From Shinella sp. H4-D48 (GTDB lineage Bacteria > Pseudomonadota > Alphaproteobacteria > Rhizobiales > Rhizobiaceae): a DNA stretch of 64,000 bases. This document shows positions 42,342-57,282 of this stretch, piece by piece. Positions within the stretch are counted from its first letter, which is position 1, and the number at the start of each line of letters is the position of its first letter. Location of the stretch: NCBI RefSeq assembly GCF_022637395.1, contig NZ_CP093337.1, positions 1,782,001 to 1,846,000 of the forward strand, written 5' to 3'. The position numbers and the translations under genes are program-made. The notes under the pieces are model-generated. The model worked only from the letters and a program-made list of their open reading frames with translations. It had not been told where the DNA came from and did not search any database.

Positions 42342-42370
42342 TGTTCTCCTGAAACATCGCTGAACAAGAG

Positions 42371-42405
42371 GGTGCGGCCAGCGTCAGCGGCCGCATCCTT
42401 TTTGT
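42371..42405 (+). terminator. terminator of wrbA
   Basis: Stem ggtgcggcc (42372-42380) / ggccgcatc (42389-42397) followed by cttttt. Confidence 0.85.
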
Positions 42406-42520
42406 TTTCCCGTAACGGGGCAATGCCTCTTTGCCGAATGGCAACGGGAAACGAAATTTGCAGATATTCGCGCCGAGCGGAGCTTCCAATGTCGCCCCGG
42501 CATGGTATTGGAAGCGCAAT

Positions 42521-42563
42521 GCGGGCGTGGCGAAACTGGTAGACGCAAGGGACTTAAAATCCC
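42521..42563 (+). pseudogene. tRNA-Leu(UAA), 5' half, split by island
   Basis: Begins gcgggcgtggcgaaactgg, a normal tRNA-Leu 5' end (acceptor gcgggcg, D arm), and runs through the anticodon loop (cttaaaa, anticodon TAA) to the end of the anticodon stem (tccc). Then it breaks off into unrelated DNA. The missing 3' half is 14.7 kb away at 57241-57282. Joined at the 13-bp repeat, the two halves give a perfect 85-nt tRNA-Leu(UAA) with CCA. Confidence 0.93.
42551..42563 (+). repeat. attL core of island
   Basis: gacttaaaatccc, identical to 57228-57240. It covers the anticodon loop and the 3' anticodon stem of the split tRNA-Leu. Confidence 0.9.
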
Positions 42564-42682
42564 GACGTGTCCGCATAAAAACGCAACCGGATCATGAGTT
42601 TAAGCCTTTTCGAGCCGATGAAGGCCTGATATAGGCCCGATGAGCGTGTTCCTGCTATGAGTTTGGACGCGTTGGAATAGAA

Positions 42683-42768
42683 GGCCGCTTGCCGAAATTG
42701 GTAGACGGAAGGCACTTAAAATGCCTCGGGCTACGCCCGTGTGGGTTCGATTCCCACAGCGGCCACCA
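42683..42768 (+). tRNA. tRNA-Leu (TAA), island-borne replacement
   Basis: 86 nt with CCA. Acceptor ggccgct / agcggcc, D arm with ggtaga, anticodon loop ctTAAaa, long variable arm cgggctacgcccg, T arm gtggg-ttcgatt-cccac. Clearly different from the split host gene (acceptor, stems and variable arm differ), so not a duplication of it. It lies 120 bases inside the left end of the island and on the same strand as the host 5' half, which suggests it can be read from the host tRNA promoter. Confidence 0.96.
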
Positions 42769-42937
42769 ACGCAACTTTCATGTCGCACCGATACATATTG
42801 GGCGCTCCATCGCTGTTGAAACTGCGATAGTGAGTGTCCTTGTCGTGAGACGATCGGTATGGTGACCGTGCTAGAAACCTGGCGGTACGATTCGCTTGGC
42901 TTCCAAGGCTCATCCATCTGCAGGGGAAAACTGAAGC

Positions 42938-44254
42938 ATGCGGCGTATGTCTGCTGAATCATTAGACTTGTTTGAAGCGCCATCGCTGTTGTCAGACGAA
43001 ACTCAACTGGTGTCTAGCGAAGACAGTCAGGATTCTCAAATCTTGGGTCTGACATTTCGAGACTCTAAGAAATTGCCGGTTCACGGTTGGTACCCCTATG
43101 TGGAAGGTTTTTCGGCCGGCTATATCGAGGATCTTGTGAGGAACTACAGCCGTGGTTCCACGGTGTATGACCCGTTCGGGGGAAGTGGCACCGTAAACCT
43201 AGTCGCGTCCATGATGGGAGTGCCGAGTGCATTTTCAGAGGCCAATCCGTTCATGCGTTTCGTTGCAGAAACGAAAGTGAACGCCCGCAATAGCGCACGT
43301 CTACGGTTTTCCGAATTCGAGCGTTGCGTTGCGAGGTTTAAAGATTGGGCATACAGCCCCAATTTTGAACGATCGTCGCGCGAGCAAGATCTAACCTCGT
43401 ATCTGCATGCCTTTGCAGGAAAAGATTTCTTCGCCGACAAAGATATTCGCGAGCTTCAGGCTCTTAGAGATGCTGCGCTGGTCCTCGGCGCGGAAGCTCC
43501 TGAATTTAGGGACATCCTTTTACTTGCGGTAGCATCTGTCACCGTTGCTTGCTCTCATATGACGCGTCGTGCCGATCTTCGTAGACGCCGCGATGACGAG
43601 TACAAAACGCGAATAGTAAATGTTCGCAGTGCGGTCATCGAGAAACTAACTTCAATGCAGCGCGATATAGGCACAGCTCCTGCCCGCCATGCTCCTGCTT
43701 TTTTTGCTTCGGCAGATTGCCGTGAACCCGTAGAGAGCTTGTCTGGCGAAGTTGAACTAATTCTAACTTCACCGCCCTACTTGAATGGAACAAGCTATAT
43801 TCGGAATACAAAGTTAGAGTTGTGGCTGATGGGCTTTATCAGTTCCGAGCGTGAACTCGTGGCACTAAATAAGACATGTATGGTATGTGGCATCAATAAT
43901 GTAGTCAAAAACCGGCCAGCTGAATATCGTTTTGATTACGTCGAGACTATTGCCGCCGAATTGGACAATGTTAGCCCGGATTTGCGTATCCCTGCACTCG
44001 TTCGAGGCTACTGCTCGGACATGTATCCGATACTCCAGAACTGTGCCAGATACTTGCGAGACGATGGTCGTCTGATCCTGGATATTGGCGATTCTCAGTT
44101 TTACGGTGTTCACGTACCAACAGATCTTCTGTTGGTAGAGGTAGCAAGAAGCGCTGGACTTCGCTTGAAAGAGGAGAGACTGCTTGCCCGGCGGCACTCA
44201 CGCGATAAGACGCCTCTTAAGCAGGTGGAGTTGACATTTACTCATGCTGCCTGA
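42938..44254 (+). CDS. DNA amino-methyltransferase, subunit/enzyme 1 of R-M cassette
   Basis: 438 residues from the ATG at 42938 (agggga upstream); an ATG nine bases on is also possible. SAM-binding motif I 'STVYDPFGGSGTVNLVASMM' near residues 67-86 and catalytic motif IV 'ILTSPPYLNGTSYIRN' near 276, the S-P-P-Y form of N4-cytosine/N6-adenine methylases. Before motif I is 'HGWYPYVEGFSAGYIEDLV', a feature of this methylase group. Markedly AT-richer than the host. Overlaps the second methylase gene by 11 bases and is followed by a convergent HNH nuclease gene. Confidence 0.88.
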   Translation: MRRMSAESLDLFEAPSLLSDETQLVSSEDSQDSQILGLTFRDSKKLPVHGWYPYVEGFSAGYIEDLVRNYSRGSTVYDPFGGSGTVNLVASMMGVPSAFSEANPFMRFVAETKVNARNSARLRFSEFERCVARFKDWAYSPNFERSSREQDLTSYLHAFAGKDFFADKDIRELQALRDAALVLGAEAPEFRDILLLAVASVTVACSHMTRRADLRRRRDDEYKTRIVNVRSAVIEKLTSMQRDIGTAPARHAPAFFASADCREPVESLSGEVELILTSPPYLNGTSYIRNTKLELWLMGFISSERELVALNKTCMVCGINNVVKNRPAEYRFDYVETIAAELDNVSPDLRIPALVRGYCSDMYPILQNCARYLRDDGRLILDIGDSQFYGVHVPTDLLLVEVARSAGLRLKEERLLARRHSRDKTPLKQVELTFTHAA

Positions 44255-45383
44255 TGCCGAATCGACACTAGAACATACAGCTTCCAGCTTTAGATCTACG
44301 CTCCCTCACACCGAGCCACCTTATCGAAGCCGAGCATGGGGGCACGGGCTCCACTCGTTGTCTTCATACCAAGGGAAGTTAAAACCTTCTCTTGCGCATT
44401 GGCTAGTCCGGCATTTCACCGACCCGGGCGATAGGGTTTTAGATCCCTTGGGTGGGGTCGGGACCGTAGCCTTCGAGGCGTCTCTTCTTGGTAGGACCGC
44501 CTTTAGTTGCGACCTAAGTCCATTCGCTTCAGCGGTAGCGCGTGCCAAACTAGATCCGCCTAGGTGCAGTGAGCTGATGCACGAGCTGGATGCCTTTGCC
44601 GAAGATTTAGCGAGCATAAGCTTAAGGGAAAGCGATTACGCCGCGGCAGAGTTCGGATTGAACGCACGAGTCCGTGACTACTTCCACGAAGAAACACTCG
44701 CGGAAGTTTTGAAGGCTCGGCGGATCCTGCTCGGCTCAGACCATTCGCGGCCGCGCAATTTCATTAAGGCGTGCCTCCTTCATATCCTTCACGGAAATAG
44801 GCCATACGCGCTATCGCGAGTGTCGCACCCGATCACACCGTTTAGTCCAACTGGCCCATTCGAGTATCGATCGCTCATGGAACGGCTACGCACGCGATGC
44901 GAGCGTTTGATGTCCTTGCAATGGCCCGAGGAGTTTGTGCCGGGAACATCCTGGCATTCAGATTTTCGGGAAATTCCAAATCTATTATCAGAGCCGGTAA
45001 ACGCAATTATCTGCTCCCCTCCGTTCCCTGGAATGAGATTTGATCGCCCAAATTGGCTGCGAATGTGGTTCTGCGGCTGGATGGAAAACGATTTCCACGA
45101 AACTAGCCGTGGATTTCTGGAGCGGCAGCAAGGCCGCACCTTTGAAGTCTACAGCGAATTCTTTCAAGTATGCCGGGACGTATCGACCATCGGAAGTCCG
45201 GTCATCCTTCACGTCGGTGGATCCAAAGCCTATGATATGACAGAGAAATTGACTGCGATTGGAAGTCGTTACTTACATCACTGCTCAACGATAATTGAGA
45301 ACGTAGAGAACGTTGAAAAGCATGGAATTAAGGATAAAGGAACCACGAGCGAACACATACTGCTAGTATTCGAGCGCCGCTAA
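44244..45383 (+). CDS. DNA amino-methyltransferase 2 of R-M cassette
   Basis: 379 residues; the ATG overlaps the first methylase's end by 11 bases. Motif I 'GDRVLDPLGGVGTVAFEASL' (about residues 61-80) and motif IV 'AIICSPPFPGMRF' (about 253-265), S-P-P-F type as in N4-cytosine methylases. Related in layout to the first methylase but clearly different, so probably each modifies one strand of an asymmetric site or they form a heterodimer. The 3' end overlaps the convergent nuclease gene by 21 bases. Confidence 0.87.
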   Translation: MLPDAESTLEHTASSFRSTLPHTEPPYRSRAWGHGLHSLSSYQGKLKPSLAHWLVRHFTDPGDRVLDPLGGVGTVAFEASLLGRTAFSCDLSPFASAVARAKLDPPRCSELMHELDAFAEDLASISLRESDYAAAEFGLNARVRDYFHEETLAEVLKARRILLGSDHSRPRNFIKACLLHILHGNRPYALSRVSHPITPFSPTGPFEYRSLMERLRTRCERLMSLQWPEEFVPGTSWHSDFREIPNLLSEPVNAIICSPPFPGMRFDRPNWLRMWFCGWMENDFHETSRGFLERQQGRTFEVYSEFFQVCRDVSTIGSPVILHVGGSKAYDMTEKLTAIGSRYLHHCSTIIENVENVEKHGIKDKGTTSEHILLVFERR

Positions 45384-46679
45384 TTGCTCGTCGATTTCTG
45401 GGTCGACTAGCTCAGGAATATCGTCTGTTGGCCGTCGGTCTGCAGCGTCTCGAACCTGGGCATATATGTCGATATCCGCTGCTCGCAGCTCATCCCAAAG
45501 ATCCACGTTAGGCCTAATCTCCCGTACTTTCCTTGCGATGGCATTAAACGCTCGCGCATCAGCCTCCCTGGCAAAGCCGGCGATATCCGCCCGGATTCGC
45601 TGCAGCTGCGGCTCGCAGACATCCCGTGTTTGAAGGTCCGCCAGTGGGAGACCAGTTATCTGTGATAAACGCTCTAGTTGTGCGGGAGTGTAAAAATCGG
45701 CGGGAAACTTGTCCTTCTTATGGTTATTATGCTCGGCACATAAACAAGTGGCGTGCTCATCGATTGGCCAAAGGTAGGCTAAAGGCCGAGTGTGATCTAA
45801 CTGTACTTGTTTCAACGTTAATGGCTTCTCACAGTAAAAGCATCGCCGCTGAAAGCGATCCCATGTGATACTCTTCAATCCTCGCCCCTGTCGGTCCTTG
45901 ATGGATTGCAAGATCTCTGGTTCGCGTAACAGTAGACGACGTTCCCGAGTAATTAGGCCGCTTTCATTGTGTTGATCAGCAGTCCGCAAGGGATTAAAAG
46001 AGTTGTTAATTCTCCATTTTTTACATGCTCGACACTCGTTCTGATGACCGCTCGGCTTTGCATTGTGCTTATGAAAACTAAGCCTCCCAGGTTGCCCGGG
46101 ACCTATCGGAAGTAATCGCCCACAGTACGAGCATTTTTTCAGCTCTATAGGGGAGCCCTGGGTTTGCCGTGTAACGACATCATCAAGCATAGTGATGTTG
46201 TCGGCCTCATGATCGAGATAGAAGGTCTCGGGCGCGAGATGAGCAACGTTCAACTCTGCTAAAGCTGGTACTTCATCACTACCGTGTTGCGGAAAATGTG
46301 AAAGGCCAATCGCCAGGCCCCATAAGTCAACGTAGTCCTGCGGAGATTGGAAGATCAGTTCGGCGACTACCGTTGTGCTTTCGCTTACAGAAAAGCCAAG
46401 ACCGAAACGCGACCAAGCTGGCCCGCTCTGAAATTCCCGTTCATGGAGGACCCCCGCTAAGCGGGTTCGTAAAACCGCAGCCGTGCTGGTCGGGGTAAAA
46501 ATAAAGCCTCCTATGCCACCCCTACAGGGCTCGACCGGCAATTTAAGCTCGGCAACGAACTTAATCGAATCTATTGGACGGTCTTTGCTTAATCTGCTGC
46601 CGAAGCTTTCATGAACCTGCTGATAGTCCCTTCTGCTTGCGTACTTATCTTCCCGATCTTGCTTTGCATGCCGACGCAC
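45363..46679 (-). CDS. zinc-finger HNH endonuclease, putative restriction enzyme
   Basis: 438 residues from a GTG with gggag upstream. N-terminal 170 residues contain no recognised domain and may recognise DNA. A zinc finger follows (C183-x2-C186 ... C216-x2-C219), then an HNH nuclease: C280-x2-C283, 'KQVQLDHTRPLAYLWPID' with Asp295-His296, and 'CLCAEHNNHKKDKFP' supplying Asn/His. The C-terminus is acidic and helical. Transcribed toward two DNA methylases and overlapping the second by 21 bases, so most likely the restriction partner of the system. Confidence 0.82.
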   Translation of the reverse strand: MRRHAKQDREDKYASRRDYQQVHESFGSRLSKDRPIDSIKFVAELKLPVEPCRGGIGGFIFTPTSTAAVLRTRLAGVLHEREFQSGPAWSRFGLGFSVSESTTVVAELIFQSPQDYVDLWGLAIGLSHFPQHGSDEVPALAELNVAHLAPETFYLDHEADNITMLDDVVTRQTQGSPIELKKCSYCGRLLPIGPGQPGRLSFHKHNAKPSGHQNECRACKKWRINNSFNPLRTADQHNESGLITRERRLLLREPEILQSIKDRQGRGLKSITWDRFQRRCFYCEKPLTLKQVQLDHTRPLAYLWPIDEHATCLCAEHNNHKKDKFPADFYTPAQLERLSQITGLPLADLQTRDVCEPQLQRIRADIAGFAREADARAFNAIARKVREIRPNVDLWDELRAADIDIYAQVRDAADRRPTDDIPELVDPEIDEQLAALEY

Positions 46680-47386
46680 GATTTACTCCCAGATGTCGCT
46701 GAAAGATCGCACCGAAAGTTTCGGAAATCAAGTACTTGCAATGTTTGATTGTGTTTTAAGTCGGAGGCACTGCGCGCCATAGCAGTCGGCCGAAGTTTGG
46801 GGCAGCGATTGAACAGCACGATTGGGTTCAGCCGGTTCGGCGGCTCACGTTTGCGAGCCAAGCCCGTGCCTGCAAAATGGCCTAGCGGAAATCGTCATAG
46901 AGCCGTGGGTTGCTGCTGAGGAGGAGGTAGACCGTCGCCGGGCAGGTGCAGTGCAGGCGGCGAGTCGGTGCCTAGCCGCAGCCCGCCGATGGCGGAACTC
47001 GTCTGGTCTGAGATCGACCGGCCGCGGATGGACGTCTCCATCCAGCGGCGCACGAAAGTCATGTGAGGTTTCCACCGGTATCGACCACGCTTCCGAGCTG
47101 CCGGACGCGCCTGCGGCAGATTCGGGGGCGCCGCGGGCCCGGCAGCATGGCGCTCTGAGCACCTGGATCGCCGGCTAGTAGTGGATGTCAGTGGCTATGA
47201 TGACGTGGTATGCGGAATTGATCGTTGAGCAGGCGGACGCTCAATAAGAGTCGAGCTCCTTACGCTTCGTAATGTTCGAAAGCGAGGATAGTCGAGCGCT
47301 ACTAGACGACGCGATCCAATTATGGGCAAAGCACAGTTAGATGACGTTGACGGAGCGGCCCACTAGGCTGCGGAAGCTTCGTCGAT
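46680..47386. other. 707-base stretch without a supported gene
   Basis: Between the HNH gene and a small membrane protein gene. Open frames exist on both strands at 46.82-47.18 kb, but neither has a ribosome binding site nor a protein-like composition; they may be remnants. The promoter of the HNH gene should lie at 46.68-46.80 kb. The base composition changes here from AT-rich (methylase side) to GC-rich. Confidence 0.5.
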
Positions 47387-47725
47387 TCATCGAAACGGAA
47401 TCTGGTGATCGATCGCTCTTTCACGGTCCTCATCGCTCACCAGTTGAGTGATAAGGTGGGCTGATACCCTTTTCAGAAAGCGTCTATGGCAGCCGTCTGG
47501 TGCAAAGGACGCTGCTAGCATGTGGTCGCCGATGATTTTGTGTGCGTCGGCTCCGTAATAGTCTCGATACAAAGCTGCAGCGTGTCGAACCTCGTCATCG
47601 GTCGGATCGCGCCGCCTGTCGCGCCGCTCGGCAGCAAACATCAGGAGGCCGCCGACGATCGCCGCCACATACCATGTAGCGAGCGCCTTATAGACCCACG
47701 CGAAGATCGTTCCGAAGCTATCCAT
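47387..47725 (-). CDS. small membrane protein, unknown
   Basis: 112 residues. One N-terminal membrane helix (YKALATWYVAAIVGGLLMFA, about 12-31), a basic stretch (AERRDRRRD) and a cytoplasmic helical domain with 'AALYRDYYGADAHKIIGDHM'. No family recognised. Divergent from the XRE/P-loop pair, with an inverted repeat in the space between, so all three may be under the XRE regulator. Confidence 0.6.
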   Translation of the reverse strand: MDSFGTIFAWVYKALATWYVAAIVGGLLMFAAERRDRRRDPTDDEVRHAAALYRDYYGADAHKIIGDHMLAASFAPDGCHRRFLKRVSAHLITQLVSDEDRERAIDHQIPFR

Positions 47726-47742
47726 GGATGTTGAATATAGTC

Positions 47743-47771
47743 CACATTTCCAGAAAGTAAGCAGAAATGTG
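47743..47771. promoter_or_regulatory. operator-like inverted repeat
   Basis: Perfect 8-bp arms cacatttc (47743-47750) and gaaatgtg (47764-47771), 13-bp spacer. It lies in the divergent promoter region between the small membrane gene and the XRE gene, in the place expected for an autoregulatory operator. Confidence 0.6.
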
Positions 47772-47818
47772 ACGATAAGTCCGTGGACGATCCGTCTACA
47801 TGCCGGCGCTATGTCGGC

Positions 47819-48052
47819 ATGTTGGATTACAGACGAGTCCTGGCAGAGAACGTGAAGGCGGCGAGAAAGGCTCTCGATCTGTCGCAGGAGGCCCTCGCGC
47901 TAGAGGCAGCCATTGATCGCACCTATGTTAGCGGGATTGAGCGGGGCAGACGGAACCCATCGCTGACCATGATCGCCAAGCTTGCCGAAAGGCTGAAGAC
48001 GACACCAGCGGCGCTATTGTCGCCCATGACGCAAGAGCAGACGGGGAAGTAG
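47819..48052 (+). CDS. XRE-family regulator (controller-like)
   Basis: 77 residues from the ATG at 47819; an in-frame GTG at 47783 would add 12 residues. HTH 'LSQEALALEAAIDRTYVSGI' followed by 'ERGRRNPSLTMIAKLAERLK', very like controller (C) proteins of restriction-modification systems and small phage repressors. One base separates its stop from the P-loop gene's ATG. A palindrome sits upstream. It might also control the R-M cassette 1.1 kb away, but there is no direct sign of this. Confidence 0.88.
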   Translation: MLDYRRVLAENVKAARKALDLSQEALALEAAIDRTYVSGIERGRRNPSLTMIAKLAERLKTTPAALLSPMTQEQTGK

Positions 48053-48053
48053 C

Positions 48054-48545
48054 ATGGTAGACAGGCTGTTTGTCGCGGTGCTTGGGAACCGCAATTCCGG
48101 GAAATCTACAACTTGGAACACTCTGTTCGGCGGCACGGTTAAGACCGGCAAGCATTCGCGGTCTCTGACGCTCAGACCTGGCGAGTGCGTTGAGGTATTT
48201 CTGGTGAGCGGTTCATTTGAGGAGCGCAAGCTGTACGCCGGCGATGTGCTGGAAGAACAAGCTAGCAGGATCGTGCTGTGCTCAATGCAATACACCGAAG
48301 AGGTCACAAAGACTCTTGAGTATGTGAAGGAAAAAGGGTTCGACCTTTATGTCCACTGGCTCAATCCGGGCTATAACGATCCGGGTGAGAACTGGGACCG
48401 GCTAGGGCTGGTCAATCGAATATTGGACGCTCCCTCGGCACTGGCGGTTCGCTCGGGAAAGGTAAACCCTATCGGCCGCGTCCAAGAGATCCGCGAATTC
48501 ATCTACGGCTGGGCCGTCTATCGCGGTTTGATATACGCGTGCTGA
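48054..48545 (+). CDS. small P-loop NTPase, unknown
   Basis: 163 residues. Walker A motif at 11-19 (GNRNSGKST) directly after the first strand, as in compact GTPases/kinases. A Walker B-like strand is uncertain ('SRIVLCSMQYTEE'), and no NKxD motif is seen. C-terminal 'VNPIGRVQEIREFIYGWAVY' helix. Not a family I recognise. Tightly coupled to the XRE regulator, so the two probably act as one regulated module; a defence or sensing role is possible. Confidence 0.75.
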   Translation: MVDRLFVAVLGNRNSGKSTTWNTLFGGTVKTGKHSRSLTLRPGECVEVFLVSGSFEERKLYAGDVLEEQASRIVLCSMQYTEEVTKTLEYVKEKGFDLYVHWLNPGYNDPGENWDRLGLVNRILDAPSALAVRSGKVNPIGRVQEIREFIYGWAVYRGLIYAC

Positions 48546-48558
48546 TCCGGCATCTCCG

Positions 48559-48999
48559 CTAGTCGTCCAAGATCTTACCGCCGCGCACCGTGGCGAGCCC
48601 TTCCAGCACCGCGATGCGCACGAAGTCGGCAGGCGCCTGCTTCGAGTGGCCGTCGTTGAGCGCCTGGATATGTCCGGCGTTGTTCGTGATGTGGATTTCT
48701 CGGTTCGTGCCAATTTCGAACGCCTCGATGATCGGCGCGCCGGCCTCGATCGTCGCGACGGAGTTCGCGTCGCCAGTCGAGCCCATCGTGCCGGGAACGC
48801 GGGCAGGAAACAGACCCTCAAAGGCGCGATCCAACTCCGGCGTCCAGTTTGAGCGGGCCGTGCCCGTATCGACCGGCGTCCCCTCGACAACGGAGCGGAG
48901 CACGACTTGGGCGCAGTCCTTTATTGCCCGCTCAACGTTTCCTTCGACCCGTACGGCGATGCGGTCGAGCCTTTTTGCCAAGTCATCAAGTCCGGCCAT
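48559..48999 (-). CDS. HK97-gp10-like neck/tail completion protein
   Basis: 146 residues from the ATG at 48999. Contains 'LVEGTPVDTGTARSNW'-type sequence (at about 38-53, here VVEGTPVDTGTARSNWTPEL), followed by a beta-sheet with 'FEIGTNREIHITNNAGHIQA' and 'LNDGHSKQAP', the HK97 gp10 family pattern of head-to-tail joining proteins. In a full phage it sits between head completion and tail tube genes; here no head or tail genes accompany it. Last gene of the minus-strand phage-type set. Confidence 0.8.
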   Translation of the reverse strand: MAGLDDLAKRLDRIAVRVEGNVERAIKDCAQVVLRSVVEGTPVDTGTARSNWTPELDRAFEGLFPARVPGTMGSTGDANSVATIEAGAPIIEAFEIGTNREIHITNNAGHIQALNDGHSKQAPADFVRIAVLEGLATVRGGKILDD

Positions 49000-49062
49000 G
49001 GCCGATTTCCTTTCAATCACACACGGAGCCGGGGTCCGGCGGTAGGATGGCGTCACCTTCCA

Positions 49063-49446
49063 TCAGTGAAGCTCCTTCGGCATGCTGTCGCGCTGCACCC
49101 TGTAGACGAGCAGCGCCATAAGCGGGTCGCCGTCTTCGAGGTAGGGCCGGAGGCGTGGGTGGACCGCACCTGCATGCGCATCCAGTGCCCAGGGTTCCCG
49201 GACGAATATCAGGACGTTTGCCGCCCCCGACATCGCAGGGATGACCAACGGCCGGTAGCCAAGGTTGAGAAGCCTCTCGGCGTGGTGGACCTGCATGTAG
49301 ACGTGGTCGGCGTCGATTCCTGCCTCTACCCAGAGGTCCTTGACCTGCACCACGGGGCATCCGGCGAGGCAGCCCATCATTCGGGCACGGTGCGCCTTGC
49401 TGCGGCGGGCTAGCTCGATCATCGCCGGGTCGCGGGATCGGGCCAT
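49063..49446 (-). CDS. phage-type hypothetical protein
   Basis: 127 residues from the ATG at 49446, two bases after the preceding gene's stop. N-terminal basic helix (IELARRSKAHRARMMGCLAG) then an alpha/beta part with 'GYRPLVIPAMSGAANVLIFV'. No family recognised. Operon position next to the gp10-like gene suggests a structural or packaging role. Confidence 0.6.
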   Translation of the reverse strand: MARSRDPAMIELARRSKAHRARMMGCLAGCPVVQVKDLWVEAGIDADHVYMQVHHAERLLNLGYRPLVIPAMSGAANVLIFVREPWALDAHAGAVHPRLRPYLEDGDPLMALLVYRVQRDSMPKELH

Positions 49447-49448
49447 GG

Positions 49449-49715
49449 TCAGGCTCCCCTCATGTAGGAGCCCCCCCGGTCGAGGCTTGGCCACACGGAC
49501 TGTCCCCTTGCGCCAACCGGCATGCCACCCACGAAGGCTGCGGGCGCGGAGGTCAGGTCTACACTCGTCCAGCCGACGAGCGCGTTCGGCTCGCCAAGCA
49601 GAATTTCGGCTGCGACGCGCGCAGCCGATGCCGATGCGCCGACCGCTAGCGCGAAATTGAGCCCATCAGCGCGACGGTGTTCCTCGCGGGTGGGAAAGAA
49701 AGCAAAGGTGGCCAT
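49449..49715 (-). CDS. phage-type small protein, unknown
   Basis: 88 residues; begins 'MATFAFFPTREEHRRADGLN' and contains 'GEPNALVGWTSVDLTSAPAA'. Probably a small beta-rich protein that might decorate or complete the head; no family recognised. Starts two bases after the stop of the coiled-coil gene. Confidence 0.6.
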   Translation of the reverse strand: MATFAFFPTREEHRRADGLNFALAVGASASAARVAAEILLGEPNALVGWTSVDLTSAPAAFVGGMPVGARGQSVWPSLDRGGSYMRGA

Positions 49716-49717
49716 GG

Positions 49718-50458
49718 TCAGTTCTCCTCGTTGTCATCTCGAATTTCTGGGGCATTGAGTGCAGCCCGGTCTCGGGCGCGGAGGGCGATGCCGATGTTGC
49801 CCTCGGCAGATGCACGGCCAGCCTCAAAGGCGCGGTCGTCTAGGACCGCCCGCTGGGCTAGTTCGCTCACTTCCATGATGGCAGCCTGCACGGCCCGGTA
49901 ATCGTCTCCGACCAAGCGATCGGCGAGTTCGTGCGGCGAGAACGGACGTTCGCTATGCGGCATCCGGCCGACCTGTGAGGCGAGCACGGCGCCGAGCTCG
50001 CGGTCCTTCGTGGATACCGCGAGAGCCGCAAGGCTCGCGAGCTCGACCTTGCCCGCATGTTCGAGCTGCTGGATCAGCCGGCTCCGACGCTCGCTGCCGA
50101 GGCTGTCGCGCATCAGCATCTGGATGCTGGAATTGTAGTGCGTCCCTGCGTCCTCGACCGAGCGCCGAAGGGCTTCAATTTCACGCAACCGGGTCGTTCG
50201 GGCGTCGAGGCTGGAACGCTTCAGGTCCGCCCGTAACCCGCCGAGGGCACGACCGACGACCTGTGATCGCTGGGAGGGTGTGAGGTCGTACAGGGTGGCT
50301 TCGAGCTCTTCCCGGCGCTTTGCAACCCGTACGTTCATCTCGGAAATGCGCTTTGCGTTCTCCGAGTGGAGCTCGCGTGCCCGCGTGAGCGAGGCCTTGA
50401 TCGACGTCACGTCGACCCACGGCTTCGTCAGGGTGGGTGGAGCCTTCTTAATTGCCAT
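49718..50458 (-). CDS. coiled-coil protein, possible scaffold-like factor
   Basis: 246 residues from the ATG at 50458 (gagaa upstream). Almost entirely helical: long charged helices through residues 20-130 ('RARELHSENAKRISEMNVRV' and similar) and a C-terminal half with 'ELADRLVGDDYRAVQAAIME'. No enzyme motif. The arrangement resembles scaffolding or size-redirecting proteins of phages and satellites, but identity is unknown. Confidence 0.6.
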   Translation of the reverse strand: MAIKKAPPTLTKPWVDVTSIKASLTRARELHSENAKRISEMNVRVAKRREELEATLYDLTPSQRSQVVGRALGGLRADLKRSSLDARTTRLREIEALRRSVEDAGTHYNSSIQMLMRDSLGSERRSRLIQQLEHAGKVELASLAALAVSTKDRELGAVLASQVGRMPHSERPFSPHELADRLVGDDYRAVQAAIMEVSELAQRAVLDDRAFEAGRASAEGNIGIALRARDRAALNAPEIRDDNEEN

Positions 50459-50642
50459 CTGGTCTTCTCCTTCGTCGTTGAGCGTCACGCTCAACCAGGC
50501 CGGAGGACCTTGGCGCGGGTCGCAGCCCGCAGGAGCGTCCACCTCCATTGAGGTGACCGGATCGGCCCATCGGCCGATCCGTAGACGTTCTCAGCATGGT
50601 TCATTGCCGCGCCGGATCGGACCAGCACTTAGGTCAATCTGT

Positions 50643-51062
50643 CTACTCGATCGCCCGCTTCGGGAACGGCACGACTGCGCTGTCGTTCGAAGTAGCTAGA
50701 GTTTCTGGAGCCTGGCCGCACGGCGCTCGATCCCGCCAAATCGAGCGCGCCTGCGTCATCGCGTGCCTTTCCAGATCGAGCGCATAGAGGCCGCAATATT
50801 CAATCCCGCCAGACACGTCGTCGGCCTCAGCGCCAATTGCTATCGCGGTGAGCATCCAATCTGTAGGCACGCCGCTCCTGGCCAATTCGCCCGCCTCAAT
50901 GGCGAACTCCGCCAAAGCCGCCACCTGCTTCGGCTCAAGGTCTACATCCTTGATGAAGCCGGTGATCACCTGTTGAATTCGCGCCATGGCGACGAGGTCG
51001 CACGCGAAGACGCGCGTTCGCCCCGACGAAATAGGGCGTCGGCCTTCTACGATCATGTTCAT
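50643..51062 (-). CDS. phage-type hypothetical protein
   Basis: 139 residues from the ATG at 51062 (gaggg upstream). Helical domain 'VDLEPKQVAALAEFAIEAGE' followed by 'LYALDLERHAMTQARSIWRD' and a flexible C-terminus. No family recognised. Same orientation as the packaging-type genes but separated from the next by 185 bases. Confidence 0.6.
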   Translation of the reverse strand: MNMIVEGRRPISSGRTRVFACDLVAMARIQQVITGFIKDVDLEPKQVAALAEFAIEAGELARSGVPTDWMLTAIAIGAEADDVSGGIEYCGLYALDLERHAMTQARSIWRDRAPCGQAPETLATSNDSAVVPFPKRAIE

Positions 51063-51183
51063 TTTTTCACCCTCCTGTTTCAGCCCTATGTGTTTTGGGC
51101 GCGGAGGGAGAATGACAGAACGGCTCAAAGTTCGAAACTAAGATATTGATATGAAAGGCATTTGATAGTACAAACTGCATCCC

Positions 51184-51573
51184 ATGAGAGAGATACGTTG
51201 GACCTCCGATATTATTGAGAAGCAGCGCCAGTTACGACCCGGCGACAGACAATATTCCAACGAATGGGTGATGATCCGTGCATACGCGCTGCACCTGAAC
51301 GACCAGGGCGTGAGACCGACGTATGCACTTATTCGGGAGATGCTGGACAGCCTTGGACGCGGCTACACCGGCCAGTCCTGCCAGATATACGAGGCCCTAC
51401 GCCGGCTCTATATGCATGGGAAGCTTGACCGGTACCCAAACGGGCGGCGCGTGCGGGTCGGGGACGTAGTCTACCGGAGCATAAGGGCGGCGGCGAAGGG
51501 TGAGCACTGCCGACAGTCGGCTGTTGCGGAGCGCATCGCTAGAGGAGAGCCCGGCTGGTCGTTCATCGACTAA
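51184..51573 (+). CDS. winged-helix-like protein, unknown
   Basis: 129 residues on the + strand among minus genes. 'WVMIRAYALHLNDQGVRPTY' and 'SLGRGYTGQSCQIYEALRRL' followed by 'KLDRYPNGRRVRVGDVVYRS' suggest a winged-helix DNA-binding domain, so a possible transcription regulator of the satellite's late genes. It is divergent from 50643-51062 and its 3' end overlaps the convergent gene by 4 bases. Confidence 0.6.
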   Translation: MREIRWTSDIIEKQRQLRPGDRQYSNEWVMIRAYALHLNDQGVRPTYALIREMLDSLGRGYTGQSCQIYEALRRLYMHGKLDRYPNGRRVRVGDVVYRSIRAAAKGEHCRQSAVAERIARGEPGWSFID

Positions 51574-51812
51574 TCGACGGATGACGCCCGCGTCCCCTCG
51601 GCGTGCTCGGATGCCATGGCCTCCCACAGCGCCTCGGGGAACGGGTTAAGCCGCCAAAACTGAGCGCCGGTCGGTCGGCCATACAGCCTCACGAGCTCAT
51701 CGCCGCCGCCCTCTAGCGCGACAATGCCGGGGGCCGTTCCCTCTAGCGAACGGGCCAGCCGCTCGACCTCGCGCAAGTCGCGTAGCGTGTCAGACCAGGA
51801 GCGCGACGCCAT
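51570..51812 (-). CDS. small phage-type protein after TerS-like gene
   Basis: 80 residues from the ATG at 51812, overlapping the end of the TerS-like gene by 23 bases. Helix 'TLRDLREVERLARSLEGTAP' followed by 'GRPTGAQFWRLNPFPEALWE'. No family recognised. Confidence 0.55.
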   Translation of the reverse strand: MASRSWSDTLRDLREVERLARSLEGTAPGIVALEGGGDELVRLYGRPTGAQFWRLNPFPEALWEAMASEHAEGTRASSVD

Positions 51813-52311
51813 CGGGCCCCTCCGCGAGTGCGAGGTCGCCTTGCACCTGTTGATACTTTTCCAGCAGGGCAATGAGCGAAGCCCTGTCCTCGGATGGCAT
51901 GCGGGCGATCACCATCGGGTCGAGTGCGCCGGAGCCAGAGGCTTCCCCTGCAACCTGTAGGAACGAACCAAGCCGTTCGGGCCACCGCAGCCGCAGCAAT
52001 ACCTCAGTCAGCCGGTCCGAGGGTCGCACCTCGTCGAAGGAGCGCGTGAAGGCGTGGCCAAGGACGGCGGTGAATGCGTCGTCCATGGCCACGGCGTACC
52101 GCGCCCGAAATTCGTGGTCACGGCGGCGGTGATCGTGGATGGTGGATGTACTGAGGCCGACCTCTTCGGCGGCGCGCTTGGGGCTCCCCGTGCGGCCGAT
52201 GATTTCCAGGACCGCGTCCTCCACCTCTGGCGACCACCGACGATCCAACTCAGGCCGTCTGCGCCCATCGGCAAATCGGAGGGCAGCCTCCTCGGATCGA
52301 TCCTTCGCCAT
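51790..52311 (-). CDS. terminase small subunit-like protein
   Basis: 173 residues from the ATG at 52311. N-terminal HTH 'WSPEVEDAVLEIIGRTGSPK' followed by 'RAAEEVGLSTSTIHDHRRRD' and 'HEFRARYAVAMDDAFTAVLG', the layout of phage TerS proteins, which bind pac DNA and start packaging. No large terminase gene follows. In satellites (PICI, P4-type relatives) a TerS of their own redirects helper packaging; that role is inferred here. Confidence 0.7.
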   Translation of the reverse strand: MAKDRSEEAALRFADGRRRPELDRRWSPEVEDAVLEIIGRTGSPKRAAEEVGLSTSTIHDHRRRDHEFRARYAVAMDDAFTAVLGHAFTRSFDEVRPSDRLTEVLLRLRWPERLGSFLQVAGEASGSGALDPMVIARMPSEDRASLIALLEKYQQVQGDLALAEGPDGVALLV

Positions 52312-52920
52312 GTCATGCCTCCGTGCGTTATTTCCCGTGCACCGTGCGCTCCGTGGACTCGCCTGCACGCCAGCACTTTTCAAAATTTTGGAACCGCTAT
52401 GCTGGGACACCCCGTTCCAGGAGAGCCTACGGAGCATACGGAGACCCCAGGACGCCGGCCTGTTCCTCCGGGGAAGTAGGTTGTTTGCCCTTCTCGTCGG
52501 ACTTGGGGCCGGGCCGGGAAAAAGGCTCCCTCCAAGCGCTTGCAATGCTTGGCCTTTTCGGCCTCCCGGAGGGACGTAGGACAGACGATCCCTTGTGTCT
52601 GCGCTCCAGGCCGCCGCTTCGCTGCTCTGGCGCTGGCACCCATGCGACCGTGCCGACCCCGGCCTTACCCTCTCGGCCGGGCTGGCTACGCTGGTGCTAG
52701 CGTGGGCGTCGCCTGCGGCACTCGCGGGGATGGTATGGCTGGGAGGCCTCCATCCTCGCGCGCAAGGACATACGGAATGCGGGCGGCCATCGAGAGGCCG
52801 TCAAGGCTTGGAGAAGAGCACCGAAGTAAGCGCCATGCCTGAAGGACGAAGCCAAGGCGGCGGCACTCCCTATCTACCAGGGAGAGGCCCCATATGGGTT
52901 ACAGGCCCGAATGCCTGGAA

Positions 52921-53198
52921 GACGCTTCGGTCGTTATGAAAAAGCTATGCGTCCGCTCTAAGTGCATGATCCGTAAGCAAAATGACGCTTTAGACCACTG
53001 ACGCTTCGTTTTCGACTTCTGCGTACCGGACTTTATCGTCGCGCTGGTTCACATGCCCCTAAGTCCGACCCTTGATCCGAAGCTGAATTTTCATAGAACC
53101 AATTTATATACTTTCTAAAGTGTCCTTAGTGTCTAAATATAAGATATATAAGGCCTTTTCCTCGGACGCTTTGAAAATTGTAAGCGTCTCTAAGCGTC
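52921..53198. repeat. GACGCTT iteron cluster
   Basis: The heptamer GACGCTT occurs at 52921, 52984, 53000 and 53165, and inverted (AAGCGTC) at 53182 and 53192: six exact copies in 278 bases, far above chance. They flank the AT-rich stretch at 53098-53155. As in P4, where the alpha primase binds short repeats at ori and crr, these are probably binding sites for the adjacent primase-helicase. Confidence 0.65.
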
Positions 53199-53234
53199 CG
53201 GTCCCGTGCATCCCGTGCATCGGATGGGACCGGG

Positions 53235-53261
53235 GCCCTCCCTCGGTGGTGAAGGGAGGGC
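53235..53261 (-). terminator. hairpin at end of primase gene
   Basis: Perfect 9-bp stem gccctccct (53235-53243) / agggagggc (53253-53261), starting 8 bases after the primase stop on the minus strand. No T-run, so termination may need other factors. Confidence 0.5.
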
Positions 53262-53269
53262 ATCGCCGG

Positions 53270-55588
53270 TCAGTCGAACATGCCGGAGGCGCCAAGCCGC
53301 TCCTCAAAGAGCCGTCGAGCCTCGGCCAGCGGTGGAACGGTCCAGGCCCTCTCGCCGGTCTTCGTCTTGCCGGTCTGAAGGCCGAGCGACCTCCCAGCCG
53401 TCGCCAGAGCACGATGGCTGGCCTTGGCGCTGAAGACCCTGTTCGTCTTCAGGAAGCGGTCGTAGTCTTCCAGAAGTTCCCCCTTCGAAACCGGATCGAG
53501 TTCCGCAGGTCCGTGGTCCCAAGCGATAAGCTCCGTGACCGGCAACGATCCTCGATCCAGCAACCCCATCCACCACTTCGAAGCAGGATCAAGGCTCAAC
53601 GCCTTCTGCTCGGCAAGCGCCTGCGTCTTCGGGATGCCCCGAGAAGGGTGCCAACCTTCGATGTCCATCGCCAGCAGGTCGTGGAGCATCGCGGCAAGAC
53701 CGCCAGCCGCCATCTGGGCGTTGAGCGCTCCGAAGAAAGCCTTGTCGTTGCGGCGTGCATCCGACACGTCGAAGACCGCAAACCTTCGAGCATCGAGCCC
53801 TGCGGGAATGACCCACTCGTTGTTGCTCGCCATCATCAGGTGGATGAGATTGCGGCCGGGGACGATGTCAGCGCCCTTGCCCTCGAACGCTATGACCGGC
53901 TCCGTCACGAGCTGTTTCAACACTCCTTCCGCCTCCTTATGCCCCGGCCAGAACGCCTCGTCGGCGAACAGGAAGGCAACGGTGCGCAGGTGGGCGTTGA
54001 AGCGACCAGCAAACTGAGCAGGCGACGAAACCGTGAGGCCGTGCGTCCCCGTGATCTGCATGAGTGCGCGGCCGAGCGTACCCTTGCCGGTTCCTTCCCG
54101 GCCTCGAAAGGTAATGGCCGCCTCAGGAGAAGTGCCGGGGCGCTGGAACATTAAGGCCATCCAGCGCAGGACATAGTCCGAGGATGCGCGGTCTCCCGAG
54201 CACAGCACCTGCTCGATCAGTTCGCGCATTATAGACCAATTGCCTGGCTTCGGCTCGACCGCCCAGCCACGCCAGAGGTTGAGCTTGCCACGGTCACGTC
54301 CCTCAGGATCAAGCACGATGCCGGGATACTTGCGCCGACGAGGGCTTGCCAGCCAGAGTTCGGCAACGCTCACCTCACGCCTGCTGCCCATCGCCTTCAC
54401 GCGCTCATCCTCATGAAAGTGGAGGAAATCGGCGCGAGACATCTTTGTCCAAACACGACGCGGCGGATCGAAGATGCCGTCCTCGTCTTCCATGAACACC
54501 GCGAACTTGCCGCCATTGAGGACGACGCAGAAGCGCTCGTTCATCTGTTCGATGAGGTCACGCTCCCGAGGTTCAGGTGCGTCCGTTTCTTCCACCGGGA
54601 AATCGTCCAGCGGGTCAGACCGTTCTGCGGCCTCGACCAGATCACCGCGACCTGCCTCGTGCAGCGCCTTGTAAAGGGTAAGGCGCGTCACCGACTCAGG
54701 GCGATCCCTGCCGAAAGACTCCCACCTTGCACGCGCCGTGTTCAGCCTGTCGGAATAGTCCGGGTCTGTCGCGCACCAGTCGAGGAAGGCGTCGATACCA
54801 TCCCCGCCGGTCGCATGATGGCAGGCCATGGCGATTGGAAGCCACAAGTCGTTGCTGCCGAAGTCGCGTGCATCCAGGCCTTCCAGGAGCTTCGAAAGCT
54901 GTTCGGAGGTCATCGCGCCGTCTACGGTCGCCGAAGGCCTCGGCGACCTCCGCAGAAGGTTCAGAAGCGCATCCGGTGCGTTCGGCACCGCCATATCGGC
55001 ACCGAACAGAGGATCCCAATCGTAGCGCCGGCCGTTCGGATGCACAGAAGGCGGAACGACGACCTGACGGCCGACAGTCTTGAACTCAATGCCGGGATAG
55101 AGTTCCGGCAACGCGTCGCGCACCCGCATATCCGCAGGCTTGCGCATGTACAGGTGAAATCCACCGCCGCCTGTCTCTACCGTTGGCCCATGAGGCAATC
55201 CCATATCTGCGATCAACCGCGCGAGCGGATTGTCACCGGGCGGGTAGTTCCTCGGGTCGGCGTCAATTACGAGCTGGTCGTCCTTGAGGCGGGCGCCAAG
55301 GTTCATCCCCCTCGCGACATGGGCCGCCGCCTCTGTTTCGGTCAGCGGCGTTTCACGGCGCCAGCCGCTATGCAGCGGGGCCTTGCCGATGGGGCGGCCC
55401 TTGGCATCGACGGCGTCGCGGCGGTGGAGCGGGATGAGGTCGAGGAGCAATGGCGTCGCCGCTACCGAGGGCGCGGCATCCTTGAAACCGACGTCGCGCT
55501 TGAACTCCGCTCCGTCCTTCTCCAGAAGCCGGCTCGCGGGCGCGTCGATGACAGCGGCGCGCCCGCTCTTCGTTTCGAGCGGGCTCAT
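53270..55588 (-). CDS. primase-polymerase / SF3-type helicase of satellite
   Basis: 772 residues from the ATG at 55588. N-terminal archaeal-type primase-polymerase domain (about 40-220) with 'DDQLVIDADPRNYPPGDNP' metal ligands and 'ETGGGGFHLYMRKP'. A middle PriCT-like region (260-340). C-terminal helicase with Walker A 'FRGREGTGKGTLGRALMQ' near 495-505 and 'RTVAFLFADEAFWPGHKEAE' as Walker B region (DUF5906 type), followed by an arginine-finger-like 'GLDARRFAVFDV'. The arrangement equals P4 alpha protein: priming plus unwinding for element replication. Overlaps the AlpA-like gene by 4 bases. Confidence 0.92.
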   Translation of the reverse strand: MSPLETKSGRAAVIDAPASRLLEKDGAEFKRDVGFKDAAPSVAATPLLLDLIPLHRRDAVDAKGRPIGKAPLHSGWRRETPLTETEAAAHVARGMNLGARLKDDQLVIDADPRNYPPGDNPLARLIADMGLPHGPTVETGGGGFHLYMRKPADMRVRDALPELYPGIEFKTVGRQVVVPPSVHPNGRRYDWDPLFGADMAVPNAPDALLNLLRRSPRPSATVDGAMTSEQLSKLLEGLDARDFGSNDLWLPIAMACHHATGGDGIDAFLDWCATDPDYSDRLNTARARWESFGRDRPESVTRLTLYKALHEAGRGDLVEAAERSDPLDDFPVEETDAPEPRERDLIEQMNERFCVVLNGGKFAVFMEDEDGIFDPPRRVWTKMSRADFLHFHEDERVKAMGSRREVSVAELWLASPRRRKYPGIVLDPEGRDRGKLNLWRGWAVEPKPGNWSIMRELIEQVLCSGDRASSDYVLRWMALMFQRPGTSPEAAITFRGREGTGKGTLGRALMQITGTHGLTVSSPAQFAGRFNAHLRTVAFLFADEAFWPGHKEAEGVLKQLVTEPVIAFEGKGADIVPGRNLIHLMMASNNEWVIPAGLDARRFAVFDVSDARRNDKAFFGALNAQMAAGGLAAMLHDLLAMDIEGWHPSRGIPKTQALAEQKALSLDPASKWWMGLLDRGSLPVTELIAWDHGPAELDPVSKGELLEDYDRFLKTNRVFSAKASHRALATAGRSLGLQTGKTKTGERAWTVPPLAEARRLFEERLGASGMFD

Positions 55589-55833
55589 GACAGCGCCTCC
55601 CTGCCGAACGACTCCACGAACTCCCGCAGGTCGCGCACGGCATACAGGACCTTCCGGCCCATCTTGATGTATCGCGGGCCACCGCCGCGCGAGCGCCACT
55701 CGGCAAGCTGAACCGCCGAGATGCTGGTGAAGACGGCTGCGTCCTCTGTATCGAGGTATTCCTTGTGCAGCGTCCTAAGACCCGCTTCGATGCGATCGAG
55801 GCGCATCAGCGCCTCTCTGACAAGGTGTTCCAT
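55585..55833 (-). CDS. AlpA/excisionase-type HTH protein
   Basis: 82 residues. HTH_17-like: 'LDTEDAAVFTSISAVQLAEW' followed by 'RSRGGGPRYIKMGRKVLYAV' and 'RDLREFVESFG'. Usual partner of island integrases, acting as excisionase or activator. The stop overlaps the primase start (ATGA), so expression of replication and excision is linked. Confidence 0.85.
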   Translation of the reverse strand: MEHLVREALMRLDRIEAGLRTLHKEYLDTEDAAVFTSISAVQLAEWRSRGGGPRYIKMGRKVLYAVRDLREFVESFGREALS

Positions 55834-55932
55834 GTTCGGCTCCTTTCCGATCTGTGTCCGATCGGGAAAGGCTACCGAGGCGGCAGGTCATGACATACCA
55901 ACACTTCATGCCGGACCGTGTGGAGGGCGTTT

Positions 55933-57075
55933 TCAGCCGCCCCGGTGCTTGACCAAGGCGGCGCAAACCTTCTCCTGCGCTTCACGCATATGGCCGAGAA
56001 GATGAGCGCGGGTTACGTATCCCCATGTCACACCGGCAGGCCGATGGTTCATCAGGAGCGTGACCGTCTGCATATCCACGCCTGCCTCAAGCGACCACGT
56101 CCTGTAGGTGTGCCGCATCTGGTGTGGTGCGTGGGGAAATTCGTCGGTGCGGCGCATTTCCTCGATGTGGCCGGACTTGCTGGTAATCGACGGGAAGACG
56201 AATGGGCTTTCTAGCGGAGCGGTCTCCTGCCTGACCCTTTCAAGGACCTGAAGCAGGTGGCGGGGCAGCGGCAGCCGGAACGCCCTGTCGGCTCCACCCT
56301 TGGGAGACGGGACCGTGAGCACGCCATCAGCGTCCAGATGCTCCCACCGCATCGACCGTGCATCGTGCGACCGCAGGCCGGTCAGCAGCATGACCGTCCA
56401 GCACGCAGCCCTGTTGTGATCTTCCATGGCGTCAAGGCAGCGCCATGCTTCGGCAAGGCCCGCGGCGTCCAGCGCCCACTTGCGCGGAGCCTCCTTGTTC
56501 ATCCTCACCGCGCGGCTGACCGGGTTCGGCGGTAGGTCCTGGGTGCGGGCTGCATCGTTGTAGACGGCCTTGAGGGCGCGCATGGCACCGTTCGCTCCGT
56601 AGGGTCCATTCTTCTTGGTGATCCTCTCGTGGAGGGCGCGGACCGTCTCGCGGTCGAGCTTGTCCAGCGGAATATCGAGGATGGACCTCAAAACGCCGAC
56701 GACCTTCTCCTCGTACCACGCCACGGTGCTAGGCTGGAGCTCGACGCCTCTGGTCTCCTTATACCGTTCCCAAGCCGTCCGAAGGCTCGGGACCGTCCGC
56801 TTCGCTATCCGTGGGTCCTCGCCACGCCGGAGTGCCAGCTTCAGTTCCGCGGCTTTTTCGCGGGCTGTCTTGAGGCTCACCTCGTCGGTGCGGCCGATGA
56901 TGATGGAGACATAGCGGTTGCTCCCATCGTTAATCCTCCCCACCAGCTTGAAGCTGGATGACTTGCTGCCCACGACAATGCGCAGGCCGGACACGTCGGC
57001 GTCGTAGACCTGCTGTCCCGCCTCGTGCTCCTCGGCTATCTTGTTGACCGTTCCCTGTGTTAGCTTGGTACCCAT
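55933..57075 (-). CDS. int: island integrase, tyrosine recombinase
   Basis: 380 residues. N-terminal DUF4102-like arm-binding part (1-95), core-binding domain (about 100-190) and catalytic domain: Arg235 (LTGLRSHD), His318 and Arg321 (HQMRHTYR), His344 (MNHRPAG) and nucleophile Tyr353 (WGYVTR). It lies 153 bases from the right attachment core. Its target in this genome is the anticodon loop of tRNA-Leu(UAA), as shown by the split gene at both ends. Confidence 0.95.
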   Translation of the reverse strand: MGTKLTQGTVNKIAEEHEAGQQVYDADVSGLRIVVGSKSSSFKLVGRINDGSNRYVSIIIGRTDEVSLKTAREKAAELKLALRRGEDPRIAKRTVPSLRTAWERYKETRGVELQPSTVAWYEEKVVGVLRSILDIPLDKLDRETVRALHERITKKNGPYGANGAMRALKAVYNDAARTQDLPPNPVSRAVRMNKEAPRKWALDAAGLAEAWRCLDAMEDHNRAACWTVMLLTGLRSHDARSMRWEHLDADGVLTVPSPKGGADRAFRLPLPRHLLQVLERVRQETAPLESPFVFPSITSKSGHIEEMRRTDEFPHAPHQMRHTYRTWSLEAGVDMQTVTLLMNHRPAGVTWGYVTRAHLLGHMREAQEKVCAALVKHRGG

Positions 57076-57227
57076 GTTTCGTGATCCTCATCTTCGAGCC
57101 CGGACCCGAAGTCAGGCCCGGTACGAGACCAGGTCCGACACGGCCCTACACGATGATGATGTCGCGAAACTCAGGGGGCGTAAGCCATGAAACGGCTCGG
57201 CATATCCCCATATGTCATTGATTTTAA

Positions 57228-57282
57228 GACTTAAAATCCCTCGGCCTTGGCTGTGCGGGTTCGATCCCCGCCGCCCGCACCA
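57228..57282 (+). pseudogene. tRNA-Leu(UAA), 3' half, and attR core
   Basis: Core gacttaaaatccc (57228-57240) is followed by tcggccttggctgt (variable arm), T arm gcggg-ttcgatc-cccgc, acceptor cgcccgc and ACCA. The acceptor pairs perfectly with gcgggcg of the 5' half at 42521. Upstream of the core is island DNA, so this half is not transcribed from a tRNA promoter as far as can be seen. Confidence 0.93.

Follow-up and report, generated by a model that had tools for sequence, protein, structure and literature searches.

A satellite-like element in Shinella that splits the tRNA-Leu(UAA) gene and very probably replaces it with a carried tRNA

tRNA-dependent lysogeny was reported in 2024 for mycobacteriophages and Gordonia phages (Fionnbharth, LeBron, Gaia and Mollymur; PMC10865867). 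In the sections of that report used here, a tyrosine integrase acts on an attB in a host tRNA gene, the phage carries a tRNA of the same isotype, the common core is 8-17 bp and the tRNA is not rebuilt. Related integrases are paired there with different targets and matching tRNAs, Gaia targets tRNA-Leu (CAA), and all cases are complete temperate phages of Actinobacteria with experimental proof (PMC10865867). Two Sinorhizobium meliloti prophages resembling Mesorhizobium phage vB_MloP_Lo5R7ANS are described, in the sections used, as sitting in the middle of tRNA-Leu (UAG) and inactivating the gene (PMC11476347; PMC12429752), and as carrying a replacement isoacceptor that resembles tRNAs of other Alphaproteobacteria (PMC11476347). 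Islander-type islands likewise combine a tyrosine integrase with a tRNA target but, as described in the section used, restore the target at one junction (PMC4383910). Here we analysed a window of 64,000 nucleotides (the whole stretch of DNA under study; Shinella sp. H4-D48, assembly GCF_022637395.1, contig NZ_CP093337.1, positions 1,782,001 to 1,846,000 of the forward strand) that contains a ~14.7-kb island. Like the phages, this island splits a host tRNA gene over a short core (13 bp) and carries a tRNA of the same isotype; unlike the Islander-type islands, it restores the target at neither junction.

We observed that the island lies in the anticodon loop of a tRNA-Leu(UAA) gene. The native 5' half (42521..42563, + strand; sequence match, ARAGORN) ends with the common core gacttaaaatccc at attL (42551..42563, +), which includes the anticodon loop cttaaaa. 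An exact repeat of the core forms attR (57228..57240, +) and is followed by the displaced 3' part of the native gene (57241..57282, + strand, or 57228-57282 counting the core; sequence match). The 13-bp core has exactly two copies in the window (starts 42551 and 57228), and the integrase gene adjoins attR. When the flanks were joined, ARAGORN called a perfect 85-nt tRNA-Leu(taa). This rebuilt gene is unlikely to be a chance product, because it is present at full length in 17 of the 21 genomes of the genus. ARAGORN called no tRNA at attL alone or at attR alone, so that a gene-restoring tRNA island, with the gene rebuilt at one junction, was ruled out. These results bear out a preliminary description of the locus, which had reported the split halves with their shared repeat, the perfect joined tRNA, the failure of either junction to restore the host gene, and a complete, different tRNA-Leu(TAA) inside the island that takes over from it.

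That complete tRNA (42683..42768, +; ARAGORN, Rfam 55.6 bits) starts ~120 bp inward of attL and reads in the same direction as the host gene; its sequence differs from that of the native tRNA. The spacer that separates it from the attL core (42564..42682, +) is element-derived, is similar in related elements and is a possible attP arm or promoter region. All 45 tRNA matches in the genome (4.77 Mb, 3 contigs, rated 100% complete) were typed, and the tRNA-Leu genes among them were TAG, CAG, CAA, GAG and the island's TAA only. A genome pattern search for a UAA-type anticodon loop plus T arm matched the island copy and the displaced 3' half only. Neither the 45 typed tRNAs nor the pattern search contained a second intact UAA-reading tRNA-Leu, and the carried copy was the only one detected. 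The disrupted host gene was likewise the only one of its kind detected, with the caveat, taken up below, that ribosomal RNA (rRNA) operons may be masked.

The native gene was full length in 17 of the 21 genus genomes, with 100% identity over 85 nt in 7, 98% in 9 and 93% in 1. The genomes without it were that of the window (G000), G011, G020 and G002. The sister genome by wrbA and moaB trees (G014) had an empty site, with the native tRNA intact (100% over 85 nt) between the same wrbA and ccdA genes in inverted orientation. A family-wide search gave native tRNA matches in at least 193 of 218 genomes.

We searched named genomes for the integrase and obtained seven loci, of which one (L092) was dropped at 26% identity. 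The six that were kept belong to Devosia ureilytica (98%), Allorhizobium undicola (97%), Rhizobium sp. Root1212 (92%) and metagenome-assembled genomes (MAGs) labelled Methylobacterium (84%), Beijerinckiaceae (84%) and Hyphomonadaceae (62%). In all six, a host tRNA-Leu 3' half stands just before the integrase, and the other end consists of the host 5' half with a complete tRNA-Leu just inside. Five of the six carry a UAA tRNA in a split UAA gene. The most distant, from Hyphomonadaceae (L127), carries a CAA tRNA in a split CAA gene, and its host's UAA gene is intact. The carried anticodon thus equals the split anticodon in 7/7 elements, including the switch to CAA, and ARAGORN found one tRNA per element stretch. 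Two pattern searches with ARAGORN typing gave no other intact copy of the split isoacceptor in the six hosts. Neither of the two outcomes that the preliminary description had named as refuting was observed: no other intact tRNA-Leu(UAA) was detected in the genome, and the native gene was intact in 17 of the 21 genus genomes.

By their carried tRNAs, six elements formed two groups of three, with full identity (86/86) inside each group and 82/86 across the groups; identities of the spacer beside the tRNA were 75-95% inside a group and 60-79% across groups. The four other full UAA elements (L123-L126) had differing restriction-modification or other putative defence genes beside the tRNA, among them cytosine methyltransferases and McrBC-like, Z1 and AAA/STAND-type proteins. 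The near-constancy of the carried tRNA, while the spacer and neighbouring genes differ, points to selection on the tRNA.

We propose that the tyrosine integrase would recombine attP with the anticodon loop of tRNA-Leu(UAA). Because attP shares only 13 bp with the target, integration would destroy the host gene, and the carried complete tRNA-Leu(UAA) would become the only detected UUA-reading tRNA of the cell. Comparison among genomes establishes, at the level of sequence, the split, the empty site, the sole-copy status, the recurrence in seven hosts and the match between carried and target anticodons. The carried tRNA is presumably expressed and charged, cells without it would be expected to die, in which case it might act as the addiction device suggested in the preliminary description, and excision would restore the native gene. 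Overall, it is very likely that a satellite-like element destroys the host tRNA-Leu(UAA) and replaces it with the tRNA that it carries.

Several observations limit this reading. The chief caveat on the sole-copy status is that tRNA-Ile(GAT) and tRNA-Ala(TGC) were not among the 45 typed tRNAs of the window's genome, so that rRNA-operon stretches may be missing or masked. A scan for consensus promoters and terminators gave nothing, including no sigma-70 consensus promoter before the carried tRNA; transcription of this tRNA may start at the host tRNA promoter or at one that such a scan does not recognise. UUA codons were scarce, with 9 in 8,990 codons of 21 long host open reading frames (ORFs) of the window, picked by length and third-position GC content (GC3); as they occurred in 6 of the 21 ORFs, UUA is rare but used. 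The two ends of the Root1212 element (G022) lie on different contigs. Sole-copy status in the six relative hosts, three of which are MAGs, derives from pattern hits rather than full tRNA scans, and five two-mismatch pattern hits without a locus were left untyped. The element is also rare: an order-wide search of 397 genomes at E<=1e-60 matched only the window's own.

The missing tRNA-Ile(GAT) and tRNA-Ala(TGC) would also fit the idea that the split is an artefact of assembly or chromosomal rearrangement and that an intact native gene lies elsewhere. We consider this next to impossible, given the exact 13-bp duplication, the integrase beside attR, the completeness of the three-contig assembly and the same structure in six other hosts. 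It is also conceivable that the element has decayed and lost a restoring 3' end, with the carried tRNA being incidental cargo that happens to rescue the cell. Phages often carry tRNAs, and two other members of the genus (G001 and G004) combine an intact gene with a displaced 5' half, which would fit gene-restoring insertions. We nevertheless hold decay to be improbable: in 7/7 elements neither junction restores the gene and a tRNA with the matching anticodon occupies the same position and strand, the seven aligned attL regions had no restoring 3' end past the core, the window's integrase is a full-length 380-aa ORF, and the only close relatives of the integrase that we found were non-restoring.

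Alternatively, the carried tRNA might serve mainly another purpose, such as resisting a tRNA-cutting defence or meeting the codon use of the element, with host rescue secondary. Such roles are proposed for phage tRNAs in general in the section used of PMC10865867, and they would suit a carried sequence that differs from the native one. This explanation is quite unlikely in view of the single tRNA per element stretch, which always had the split anticodon, even where this was CAA. UUA was also about as rare in island ORFs (2 in ~1,716 codons, from four ORFs that passed the GC3 filter, with the lower-GC3 methyltransferase region left out) as in host ORFs. Comparison among genomes thus gives good support to replacement of the host tRNA by the carried one.

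We assessed the gene content of the island by scanning 18 of its ORFs against PHROGs and Pfam; a few short ORFs were left out. The tyrosine integrase (55933..57075, - strand) combines Arm-DNA-bind_3 and Phage_integrase domains. Next to it are a helix-turn-helix (HTH) protein of the HTH_17 family (55585..55833, -), weakly matching the excisionase family phrog_66, and a primase-polymerase/helicase (53270..55699, -; Prim-Pol, PriCT_2, DUF5906; phrog_1156). A terminase small subunit-like protein (51790..52545, -; phrog_4044, E 7.8e-8) and an HK97-gp10-like neck/tail completion protein (48559..49056, -) were the only virion-type proteins among the scanned ORFs, and no ORF matched a capsid, portal or large terminase in PHROGs. 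An HTH transcriptional regulator (47783..48052, +) and a 276-aa protein without assigned function (49718..50548, -) are also present in loci L086, L088, L089 and L090, and a 163-aa protein without assigned function (48054..48545, +) in L086 and L090. The variable cargo region beside the tRNA encodes a type II-like DNA methyltransferase (42938..44254, +; PDLC03389), a second DNA methyltransferase (44244..45383, +) and an endonuclease VII/HNH-like protein (45363..46679, -).

Satellites of the phage-inducible chromosomal island (PICI) and P4 kinds have an integrase, HTH regulators, a primase, a small terminase, a size of ~15 kb and variable defence cargo. The island resembles them in its genes, its size, its variable putative defence cargo and in that most virion genes were not seen. 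It encodes an integrase, a regulator, a primase and a small-terminase-like protein, but its set of virion genes is incomplete, and this content does not correspond to that of a virion-forming temperate phage. Because its virion-type proteins are a small-terminase-like and a neck protein only, we regard it as working like tRNA-dependent lysogeny and do not file it as a phage case. Judged from its genes, the island appears to be a phage-satellite-like integrative element, presumably mobilised by a helper phage. Satellites without tRNA genes have been reported, in the section used of PMC10690885. The family of the window's element differs from the mycobacteriophage cases in its size (14-16 kb), in the lack of a capsid, portal or large terminase match, in its occurrence in Alphaproteobacteria and in its crossover in the anticodon loop.

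We observed a second element type at the same target. In G011, the split halves enclose a 336-aa integrase and a 956-aa ORF that we take, by eye, to be a T7-like RNA polymerase, and a tRNA-Leu(taa) is carried. The window's integrase had no tblastn match at this locus (L076) at E<=1e-4. The stems of host and element differ in both the Root1212 element and G011, and the junctions switch sequence inside acttaaaat, which places the crossover within the anticodon loop. Rhizobium phage Pasto (MT708545.1, Autographiviridae) has an integrase that shares 58% identity with the one in G011. Pasto has a tRNA-Leu(TAA) 0.2 kb from an anticodon-loop-like core, gcacttaaaatgc, as in the window's element, but it is a complete T7-like phage with a T3-like RNA polymerase and an integrase of the G011 type. 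In an IMG/VR provirus with a G011-type integrase (L139, 75%), we found both a carried tRNA-Leu(taa) and a 3' half of host-like sequence; another (L138, 80%) had no tRNA in the 13.7 kb examined of its 56 kb. T7-like phage elements thus use the same solution at the same target with an integrase of a different type from the window's. The integrase of vB_MloP_Lo5R7ANS is 35% identical to that of the G011 island and of the same type, and the S. meliloti prophages differ from the window's element in being podophage-like. In vB_MloP_Lo5R7ANS itself, a tRNA-Leu(TAG) (L141:8488-8573) follows the integrase with two genes between, which matches the published Sinorhizobium cases.

Three genomes bear on whether the carried tRNA outlives the element. 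G020 retains a 3.9-kb remnant with the split halves and the carried tRNA, and by eye none of its ORFs of >=100 aa looked like an integrase. In G002, the wrbA site holds only a foreign-type tRNA, one base off the Devosia cargo, and native halves were not detected at E<=0.001. In the moaB tree, G002 sits on a long branch, possibly at the base of the genus, and the sequence upstream of its tRNA has no visible likeness to the element spacer by eye; for these reasons its case is only consistent with displacement.

In G023, a Methylobacterium MAG, the gene that is split belongs to the carried type as well (5' half 40/40, 3' half 96%), and the sequence before it resembles the spacer of the element itself. 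We found no native-type half at 34 to 86 kb of the contig, and a search of the whole genome at E<=1e-5 gave no native-type match. Among the 17 genomes of its genus, the native type was intact in 9 (92-99%), split in G024 and without a match in G023 and four more; a third type was present in G1007 and G1014. The simplest reading is that an earlier insertion left its tRNA behind and that a new copy then used this tRNA as its attachment site. Because G023 is a MAG, this reuse is tentative. We also considered a native origin of the carried tRNA in the Methylobacterium MAG host; this was dropped, as the tRNA matched only in G023 and G024 (the element's own copy) of the 17, with the other native type in 9. 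The third tRNA-Leu(UAA) type (L179:1501-1585 in G1007, L180:1494-1578 in G1014) occupies a locus with 5'-side sequence in common with the G023 site, a hint that turnover may have happened there more than once.

The G020 remnant, G002 and the tRNA used as attachment site in G023 suggest that the tRNA gene is retained by selection even though the remainder of the island can disappear. The tRNA would then be a weak lock on the island, and what any addiction preserved would be the tRNA gene, not the island as a whole. On balance, we lean towards the view that such elements permanently rewrite the host tRNA set, with the carried tRNA surviving decay, the native gene disappearing and the foreign tRNA serving as the next attachment site.

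Further observations concern the native site and the distribution of the element. Relative to wrbA, the cassette of promoter and tRNA-Leu(UAA) was convergent in 11 and co-oriented in 10 of the 21 genus genomes; among the latter, G004 was judged on its displaced half and G002 on its foreign tRNA. Window positions 42342-42563 aligned in inverted orientation with G014 (L045:1410-1760) at a local score of 27, compared to <=15 for 200 shuffles and 14 on the same strand. We read this as a probable recurrent small inversion of the cassette at the wrbA site. The displaced 5' halves in G004 (L080:5214-5255) and G001 (L085:9076-9116), both with the intact gene elsewhere, are consistent with other islands at the site that bring a 5' part of their own and so restore the gene. 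G008 has an extra tRNA-Leu(taa) on a 16.9-kb contig (L081, C42) although its native gene is intact, possibly from an episomal or unlinked element. A class-wide search for the carried tRNA (385 genomes, E<=1e-26) found it only in the window's genome. Viral contigs contained no integrase relative with the single window query; an alignment query gave eight integrases at 23-29% identity, and in the stretches examined none had a tRNA-Leu and one had a tRNA-Arg. On plasmids, 37 records matched the integrase, all but the best at <60%. The best match, in Rhizobium gallicum pRgalR602b (L142, near 38.5 kb; typed conjugative), was a 76%-identical integrase fragment with no tRNA in the stretch.

With the mycobacteriophages and the Sinorhizobium prophages published, both the principle and an alphaproteobacterial phage case are known. 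Among openly licensed PMC papers, judged by title and the start of the abstract, we found no tRNA-replacing satellite. What appears to be new is a satellite-like element family with putative defence genes that uses tRNA replacement, together with indications that the carried tRNA can persist after the element is gone and take the place of the native gene. Our data would add to the whole phages that use tRNA-dependent integration a small, satellite-like element with restriction-modification-type genes, found in hosts from Rhizobiaceae and Devosiaceae and in MAGs labelled Methylobacterium, Beijerinckiaceae and Hyphomonadaceae. Within this family, the carried anticodon follows when the target anticodon changes. 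These results also suggest that such elements would escape island finders that depend on a restored tRNA. If the carried tRNAs do persist, mobile elements would drive turnover of an essential tRNA gene, and the family offers a natural setting for testing the foreign replacement of such a gene, which is usually inherited vertically.

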